Below, piece by piece: positions 48,649-50,623 of a DNA stretch of 64,000 nt. Position numbers and translations under genes: made by a program. Source of the stretch: Petrosia ficiformis (taxonomy: Eukaryota > Porifera > Demospongiae > Haplosclerida > Petrosiidae). The first letter of the stretch is position 1, and each line of letters begins with the position of its first letter. Location: the NCBI GenBank assembly GCA_947044365.1, contig OX345650.1, forward strand, positions 3,889,872 to 3,953,871. Reading direction: 5' to 3'. Below the pieces are notes generated by a model. The model made no database searches and was not told where the DNA came from. It saw nothing but the letters and a program-made list of their open reading frames with translations.

Positions 48649-48780
48649 AATGTTGTTTTAGTGAAACAACCCACATATTTTAATAATGGCTGTGGCTAGA
48701 GTACCCGTACCGGTTCCAGAAGCACAAAATTCAGAGTACCGGTACCGAAAATTTAACCTTTAACAGTAAAAACCTGACAG

Positions 48781-49209
48781 ATCTTTGGCTGAACATAGAG
48801 CTTCATCAGACATTCCTGTGAATGTCTTTACAGTAACGAATTGTTCTAATATTCTGACTCCTGCTTCAAAAAGAGGTATATATATATATATTAGATAATC
48901 TTGAACATCTATAGTATAATTCGTAGTTGATACTCCTCTCTCCCATTCTCATCCATTACCTCAGACAATGAAGCTATAATCATCACAATAGGTGTAATAG
49001 GATTATTATTATTGATTATTACAAGTGTGATGATACTGATCATAAACAGTTGTTATTTATGGAGACATTCAAAGATGTCAAATAAACCAATGAACAAGAC
49101 TGAAGATGAATTATACAATATCACAGAAGTTAAAGTATCTGACAATGCAGCATATAGTATATGTAAACAACAAAATGATGCTGTTTATGAAGAAATAGAT
49201 AATATGTGA
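48781..49209 (+). CDS. Single-pass membrane protein tail (two exons) inside MULE
   Basis: Exon 1 (48781-48875) follows ACCTGACAG and reads SLAEHRASSDIPVNVFTVTN, ending AAAGAG/GTATAT. Exon 2 (48965-49209) follows CATTACCTCAG. The G left by exon 1 plus AC makes Asp, so the phase fits. Exon 2 starts DNEA, then a transmembrane helix AIIITIGVIGLLLLIITSVM, a basic stop-transfer stretch (WRHSK), and a cytoplasmic tail with three tyrosines: ELYNITEV, NAAYSICK and AVYEEIDNM before the stop. YEEI is the classical Src-family SH2 ligand when phosphorylated. This looks like the 3' end of a type I receptor gene. No signal peptide or ectodomain is in the element, so it is probably a captured fragment. Confidence 0.6.
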
Positions 49210-49330
49210 ATCAGTGGATCATGTGACAGTAAAATAATAATTACTGAAAAGGACAACTACATGTAAATTGAGTTCACAAATAATTAAAATTTGTTTAAGT
49301 TACTTATGATTCTGTTTATCACTTTAAATT

Positions 49331-50508
49331 TTAGTTCTTAGCAAGTAAATAGCAAGACCTACAAAACCATTGTCTTCCTTTGGGCTGTGCTTTCAGACCA
49401 ACACACCGAAAATGGTACCAGAGTAGGCACGCATCACAAATGATGGATACCTCACTGTGGAGATCATGGTGACAGGCATGGCAGGTCCAGACTATATTTT
49501 TCATTTTAGTCTTGATAACAGTGTCCAGGAGCAGCCATGCATCACTAGAAAAGTATTGACGAATCAAGCATATATCAACATTCTCATCTAGAATTGAATC
49601 GGGAATTCTTTCTGGTTTGCACTCCACATGCTCTTCTTCTATTAGCAAGCTGCCATCTATAGCATCTTTTGCTACTTCTTTGTCCACAAACCATGAAAGG
49701 AGAACTAAAAATAAAGAAAGAAGACTGCAGTTGGACACACTGTACGAACTACATGAGACACACATAGAGCAGTGAAATTTAACCTTTCTCTTTCTCTGTA
49801 GTGTGAAGTCGACTAAAGCTAACAGGTTTTCTTGATTGTAGATTGCCTCTTCTGTTTCGCTTTGCTGGGAGACCAATAATTGTCAAATCACTGCCTTTGG
49901 GTCTTCCCCTCCTCTTGATAGGTGGTGGGACCTTTAACCCTACAGAGTTAACAAATTCTAAATATTGCCTCCCACAAGTACTTCTTAATTACCTAAAGAG
50001 AATTCAGTATGATGGTCCGGTGGATCATTTTCTTGTCCAGTAGTGTCTTTCAGCTCTGTTACAATCACAAACATATAGATACATGTACTACTACATGACA
50101 ATTGGCACACACATATTAACATAGAGAGATGTGAGCTGAACAGTCCTGCTTAAATGTCCTATAATGTGTAATCAAAGTCATAAATAATCATGTTTAAATA
50201 TGTATCTTTAACAGGGATGATCTGGCTTACGATGTATGCCTTGATCCTTTGCCCTTAGATTTAAAACTCTGTCCACCATGTATACAACACAGCTTAATCT
50301 CGTAATACTTCAGCTCTGGCTTTAGGAATTTGTCGAGACGCTTTTTTGCTGCTTCAATCGTTCGGGCATCTCTCTTCCAAAATTGAACGAAGTGCGCCTT
50401 TTCATAAGCTCTGACTTTTGCATCCAATTCTTGAAATGTAGAGAATAAATCCCCCACACAAAAGGTAACTTCATCGCTGCACACTTCCACTTCTCTACCG
50501 ATCTCCAT
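49331..50508 (-). pseudogene. MULE transposase-type gene, core deleted (FAR1/ZSWIM-like N-terminus, AT-hook, PHD)
   Basis: Exon 1 (50234-50508) starts MEIGREVEVCSDEVTFCVGD and contains SFQ-like FSTFQELDAKVRAYEK, RTIEAAKKRLDKF and YYEIKLCCIHGG, the usual N-terminal part of animal ZSWIM/MULE proteins; a GTAAGC donor follows. Exon 49784-49939 has an AT-hook (KRRGRPKGS) and TIIGLPAKR. The last exon (49331-49709) ends with a PHD finger: CHACHHDLH, CDACLLWYHFRC and WFCRSC. The DDE transposase domain between these parts is missing. As it stands a spliced product would be a PHD/AT-hook chromatin-type protein without catalysis. Confidence 0.65.
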
Positions 50509-50623
50509 GATAGTTGCACGTGGACAGTCTTTGCCGGTACTTTAAGGGTTAAATTTTCAGTACCGGTACCGGTACTTTAAGGGTTAAATGTTCGGTAGTA
50601 CTCTAGCCACAGCCTTTAATAAT

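Follow-up and report, generated by a model that had tools for sequence, protein, structure and literature searches.

The 64,000-nucleotide stretch of Petrosia ficiformis DNA analysed here (the window) contains a MULE inside which part of a receptor-like gene is found. This raises the question whether the fragment was taken from a gene of the host, by which route it entered the element, and whether it has a function there. A first-pass annotation of the window had proposed a capture of the kind known from plant Pack-MULEs, and had suggested that the fragment might supply a tyrosine-signalling tail.

The element and its own gene

The limits previously read from matched ends and a perfect 9-bp duplication hold: the termini are GGCTGTGGCTAGAGTAC at 48688 and its reverse complement at 50614, and TTTAATAAT stands on both sides (Table 1). 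The target site duplication (TSD) of MULEs is usually about 9 bp. With such a TSD, with terminal inverted repeats (TIRs) common to the copies, and with a MULE transposase domain in the copy L009 (PF10551, 63.4 bits against a cut-off of 27.6), the element has the features of the MULE superfamily.

The gene belonging to the element itself lies on the minus strand. It had been described as broken and is so: a deletion of about 2.05 kb, joined at the TAG overlap, has removed its catalytic core. The part that is absent here corresponds in L009 to the MULE/ZSWIM RNase-H-like core (PF21056, 132.9 bits, in addition to PF10551). The window copy is an internal-deletion derivative. In the Hydra protein P0121, MULE, GRPKG, and PHD follow each other in the same order as in the element gene, and the PHD finger is terminal. 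We thus attribute the PHD finger to the element itself, and on account of this order rejected the view that it represents a second captured gene.

Table 1. Features of the MULE copy in the window. Positions are those of the window.
Feature	Positions	Strand	Remarks
MULE, internally deleted, 1927 bp	48688..50614	.	
Left TSD, 9 bp, TTTAATAAT	48679..48687	.	perfect pair with right TSD
Right TSD, 9 bp, TTTAATAAT	50615..50623	.	perfect pair with left TSD
Left TIR region	48688..48766	.	longer in L009/L011 than here
Right TIR region	50542..50614	.	
Captured piece 1, 31 bp	48766..48796	+	inverted relative to exon piece; 28/31 identical to L017, 27/30 to L016
Captured piece 2, 525 bp	48795..49319	+	from donor receptor gene; truncated stalk exon, intron, TM/tail exon, 3′ UTR
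Stalk (juxtamembrane) exon	48795..48875	+	5′-truncated; ends at native splice donor
TM and tail terminal exon	48965..49209	+	native, stop included; tail frame follows an upstream phase-1 junction
3′ end of element's own gene	49331..49882	-	PHD finger and stop codon (49331-49333)
Part of element gene with GRPKG motif	49782..49988	-	motif also in Hydra MULE transposase
Junction of internal deletion (about 2.05 kb)	50122..50124	.	3-bp TAG overlap; relative to L009
N-terminal part of element gene	50227..50541	-	Pfam ZSWIM3_N

The minus strand of the window (3-63643) carries many tandem transporter-like ORFs with a shared Cys-rich N-terminus (RRESRxCCIRCCRSCCVGCVCSKG). Two of these ORFs were scanned and belong to the POT family (PF00854), and the rest were assigned by ORF similarity. 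Transporter genes of this type lie on both sides of the element. Lying on the plus strand, the captured exons cannot be joined by splicing to the neighboring transporter genes at this site.

Donor receptor genes in the host genome

As had been proposed as a check, the tail (80 aa) was searched against the host genome (191,215,263 bases in 29 contigs). It matched at 14 places, namely eight copies of the element, two C4 loci, two C1 loci, and two places with E >0.6. The C4 loci, L031 (= L017) and L032 (= L016), are of donor type, lie about 15 kb apart on chromosome 4, and have tails that are 80-81% identical to that of the element. Over the aligned stretches, the element is 83.6% identical to L016 and 89.8% identical to L017. 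At the C1 loci (L033, L034), the tail follows the same plan at 37-39% identity.

For L016, an open gene model with six exons, GT/AG introns, and consistent phase was obtained (511 aa), in which the tail is the last exon. Its product has, in this order, a signal-like start, a stretch of about 160 aa with no match in Pfam, two Ig domains, a stalk, a transmembrane (TM) helix, and the tail; the signal-like start and the stalk were judged by eye, and so was an Ig-like exon of L017. The best protein match to L016 (three matches, 7,992 candidates scored) is P0001, an Ig-type receptor tyrosine kinase (45% over 48%). The ectodomain of L016 resembles that of P0001; L016 has no kinase domain, and its second tail tyrosine is replaced by Cys. 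L016 (4229-8719), L017, L033, and L034 make up a family of host receptors whose short tail has three tyrosines. Among database proteins, P0125-P0128 have the TGA stop of the tail read as tryptophan, and P0127 and P0128 look like a donor-type allele that is nearer to the element than L017.

No TIR motif was detected in L016, L017, L033, and L034 when up to three mismatches were allowed. Because L016 is a host gene with Ig exons, the C1 loci have the same tail plan, and all four loci are devoid of TIRs, the transfer most likely ran from the host to the element. The element is closer to L016 in the stalk exon and closer to L017 near the splice donor, so that neither C4 locus is the exact donor; the direct donor would have been an ancestor, a lost third copy, or another allele. 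With donor-type loci in the same genome, and with pieces and junctions resolved, the proposal that a MULE captured a fragment of a host receptor gene is substantiated.

Structure and junctions of the captured fragment

The captured fragment begins 11 bp past the transposase stop codon and runs opposite to the element's broken transposase gene. Exon boundaries are as first described: the stalk exon is followed by GT at 48876, and AG at 48963-48964 precedes the TM/tail exon. The same donor site and acceptor serve as splice sites in the modelled host gene, and the GT as well as the acceptor (CCTCAG) are kept in all eight copies. Proper acceptors had been ascribed to both exons. This applies to the TM/tail exon, whereas the stalk exon lost its native acceptor through the 5′ truncation. 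Near the stalk exon, an AG at 48766 is immediately followed by TAA in the tail frame, and another at 48780 (ACAG) is changed to ACAA in six of the eight copies. The tail ORF is open and has one hydrophobic helix and three tyrosines, ending in YEEIDNM.

Piece 1 corresponds to the plus strand of the donor loci (L016, 3540-3569; L017, 3359-3389), piece 2 to the minus strand of L016, from 4597 to 4108. In L016, the source of piece 1 lies 538 bp beyond the captured end of piece 2 and is oppositely oriented; the switch between the two covers 1,028 bp. A 21-mer from piece 1 (up to two mismatches) was found at 10 genomic places, these being the eight element copies and the two donor loci, and its reversed control at none. 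Short overlaps occur at all three joints: GGTA between TIR and piece 1 when compared with L017 (by eye, L015) and only TA when compared with L016, AT between pieces 1 and 2, and AT between piece 2 and the MULE. The last of these is fixed by L018, a 65-bp match (85%) to the 3′ end of the MULE which runs on where the capture begins in the element. The pre-capture state of the element is reconstructed from this short match and from diverged relatives. Microhomology as postulated in the FoSTeST model is thus present: the first joint has 4 bp (2 bp if L016 is taken as donor) and the other two have 2 bp each; overlaps as short as these can also occur by chance.

Copies of the element and related elements

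Other copies had also been suggested as a check. In a DNA search, the captured segment was found at at least eight genomic places (copy counts are lower bounds). Both ends were seen in seven copies including that of the window; the C3 copy is without one end. Six of the seven two-ended copies (the window copy and five of the six others) have a perfect 9-bp TSD, the exception being L015. The TSDs of L011 and L014 are identical in letters (TAATAATAA) at unrelated sites. Flanks are unrelated bar one 35-bp match (0-1,500 bases per side compared).

The search with the transposase core (37 candidates scored) resulted in 29 rows. Six copies have an open core of 471-472 aa at 99-100% identity; the broken core of L015 accounts for two rows (96% and 92%), and the remaining 21 rows are at most 67% identical, 10 of them with stops. 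All seven close transposase loci (92-100%) contain the capture, which is thus not private to the window copy. The core is intact beside the cargo in six of the eight copies, broken in L015, and deleted in the window copy. A close-family copy with both ends and devoid of the capture was not found among the 37 candidates scored. Because at least eight copies share the capture, including all six with an intact core, we infer a single capture by a transposase-bearing MULE, followed by transposition. The presence of the same exons in most full-length autonomous copies had been named as the mark of a native element gene; these exons are indeed present in all six copies with an intact core, but the donor gene points to capture. 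An additional 0.88 kb (approximately) in L013 was considered as a second capture and dismissed, its ends resembling a repeat that also occurs in L016 (by eye).

Not all elements with the same TIRs carry the capture: L019-L022 and L066 match only in TIR-type sequence. L019-L022 are short elements of 328-569 bp, with a perfect 9-bp TSD in L020 and L021 and no perfect one in L019 and L022. L066 (C1:43114600-43116850) contains at 199-2037 an element of 1839 bp whose TIRs are of the same type and whose 9-bp TSD is perfect; it carries an ORF for a Ulp1-like protease with PHD. At least 151 genome matches were obtained for this ORF when 150 of 313 candidates were scored, and domains of this kind have been described in Mutator transposons (PMC2836005); on these grounds, L066 was rejected as a second Pack-MULE. 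The tail was not matched in the 15 related MULE loci searched. One MULE relative, L048, has a PHD finger with 54% identity and no tail match in the approximately 0.9 kb covered downstream.

Reading frame, tail variation, and selection

The motif YEEI is an SH2 ligand. Three tyrosines ending in YEEI, as initially reported, are found in the window copy, whereas YEEI is kept in two of the eight copies and the other six have YEER. In these same six copies, the spliced frame is shifted by slippage of a TA repeat after ATGAAGC, with an insertion of 4 bp in five copies and of 8 bp in L014. An upstream phase-1 junction leaves the exon open into the tail in the window copy and in L015, as does phase 0 in L009; in L014, the tail is not reached in any phase (four of the eight copies were translated). 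The 4-bp insertion opens an ATG-led ORF for a membrane protein of 81 aa in five of the eight copies; without it, the same ATG meets a stop after three codons. A public protein (P0124, from a 1385-bp contig) combines the 81-aa form with YEEI, so that other samples hold further variants.

The tail ORF is open in all eight copies; the chance of no stop is 0.40-0.74 for 20-6 random substitutions (uniform model, indels ignored). Pairs of copies differ in the tail by 0-1 synonymous and 0-3 nonsynonymous changes, with a dN/dS of 0.22-0.70 where defined, each value representing one synonymous change. Between element and donors, dN/dS is 0.72-1.04, and it is 0.76 between the donors; three synonymous and ten nonsynonymous changes are unique to the element. 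We see no convincing sign of purifying selection on the tail, the numbers being small. With 6 synonymous and 16 nonsynonymous variable codons in the transposase core of the six copies, even the transposase gene shows little constraint at this depth.

The suggested function as a tyrosine-signalling tail loses ground in view of the missing native acceptor of the stalk exon, the frame shift, the loss of YEEI, the lack of a convincing selection signal, and the orientation opposite to the flanking genes. As far as sequence can tell, the tyrosine-signalling reading is weak.

A model for the capture and its alternatives

We consider it very probable that a composite stretch from a host Ig-receptor locus entered the MULE by template switching, that the MULE spread with this piece as a unit, and that the fragment is now a neutral passenger. 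Template switching during gap repair or replication fits the opposite orientation of the closely spaced donor pieces and the short overlaps at the three joints. A MULE with its own transposase gene would have acquired the receptor piece in a microhomology-guided way during repair or replication. Synthesis would have started at the TIR and taken 31 bp from one strand of the donor locus; after a switch of about 1 kb to the opposite strand, it would have copied 525 bp across the last two exons before rejoining the MULE 11 bases past the transposase stop codon. The reverse direction of synthesis is equally possible. The chimeric element would then have transposed as a unit to at least eight sites, the window copy losing its transposase core after this spread, and the fragment of today would most likely be a neutral passenger. 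At 11 bp past the stop, the capture replaced or extended the 3′ UTR and left the protein untouched, which may be the reason why it was tolerated.

A function of the fragment might be exerted at the level of splicing: a copy within an intron could supply the acceptor at 48964 and add TM helix and tyrosine tail to a host protein. The acceptor kept in all copies and the open phases of the window copy, L015, and L009 are in accordance with this, but the shifted frame and YEER in six of the eight copies, the unreachable tail of L014, and the position of the window copy between transporter genes of the other strand make it very unlikely. Moreover, no copy was found inside an intact gene in sense orientation (flanks of up to about 1.5 kb, none on one C3 side; ORFs of at least 75 aa). 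A guanylate-binding-protein (GBP)-like fragment at C7:2746234-2746738 shares the strand of the captured exons in the C7 copy and lies about 0.84 kb upstream of them. It looks frame-broken; a chimeric GBP gene was rejected on this ground and because inspection by eye revealed no obvious splice donor. Alternatively, a transposase mRNA that reads on would carry an antisense stretch of about 520 nt against the 3′ end of the receptor, and the resulting dsRNA could silence the receptor genes or draw small RNAs onto the element. The capture follows the transposase stop closely and on the opposite strand, neither AATAAA nor ATTAAA (the two hexamers searched) occurs on the transposase strand within 48691-49345, and the identity to the donors is considerable, although the divergence would weaken pairing; we regard this as very unlikely. 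That the tail has been kept because it is useful to the element, as an antisense 3′ region tied to the regulation of host Ig receptors or, in its 81-aa form, as a decoy for tyrosine signalling, seems quite unlikely.

The membrane-tail ORF might also be a functional accessory gene of the MULE. It is present in all eight copies and thus in all six with an intact core, the 81-aa form recurs in P0124, and the copy-to-copy dN/dS values, each with its one synonymous change, lie below 1. This is nevertheless highly improbable, given a host donor that has Ig exons upstream and lacks TIRs, the related loci without a tail match, the dN/dS between element and donors, and an ATG that runs into a stop unless the insertion is present. 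The sequence common to element and host loci could, finally, be explained by receptor genes which obtained their last exon from the MULE. Four non-element loci share the tail plan without having TIRs, and the two captured pieces, which abut in the element, are apart and oppositely oriented in both donors; this renders such a direction extremely improbable as compared with capture by the MULE.

Relation to known systems and significance

Plant Pack-MULEs are non-autonomous and devoid of a transposase. The sponge element shares with Pack-MULEs a host donor gene elsewhere in the genome (C4 L016/L017) and amplification by transposition to at least eight copies, but six of its eight copies hold an intact core together with the cargo, and the window copy became non-autonomous by internal deletion. 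A host gene fragment within MULE ends and transposition with distinct TSDs are described for plant Pack-MULEs in PMC8277862 and PMC13317346. Captured gene, TSDs of 9-10 bp, multiple copies, and microhomology at breakpoints are also reported for the Ssk-FB4 Pack-MULE and other animal Pack-TIRs (Tan et al. 2021, PMC8277862), for which FoSTeST, a model of template switching plus transposition, was proposed; the present case differs in its sponge host, in its composite, two-piece inverted capture, and in a carrier that has its own transposase. That report gives no Pack-MULE for the 100 reference genomes of animals it surveyed, and population data were the source of the fly case. Turmoil-1 of C. 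elegans (Sela et al. 2008, PMC2572040) is likewise described as a transposase-bearing DNA transposon with exon-intron pieces of the host, but it belongs to the Harbinger superfamily and has its cargo, judged there to be outside purifying selection, within long inverted repeats. The KIU/Kaonashi Ulp1 MULEs of plants (PMC13317346) are reported to combine other coding genes and a captured domain; across eudicots, the Ulp1 domain of these elements is conserved, and a use is ascribed to it, whereas no such sign was seen here. MULEs of arthropods have been surveyed (PMC13359780). No Pack-MULE of Porifera was found in the literature searched, with most subscription journals outside its coverage.

Animal TIR elements that captured genes, one of them a Pack-MULE in a fly, were thus already known; what is new is an example from a sponge in which donor and junctions are resolved. 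In this early-branching animal, a single chromosome-level genome shows the donor-type loci, every junction, and the daughter copies of such a capture. The formation of Pack-MULE captures is called perplexing in PMC8277862, and the strand flip over about 1 kb, with a short overlap at each joint, bears on how such captures form. With the transposase core staying intact beside the cargo, a capture probably need not cost the element its autonomy.
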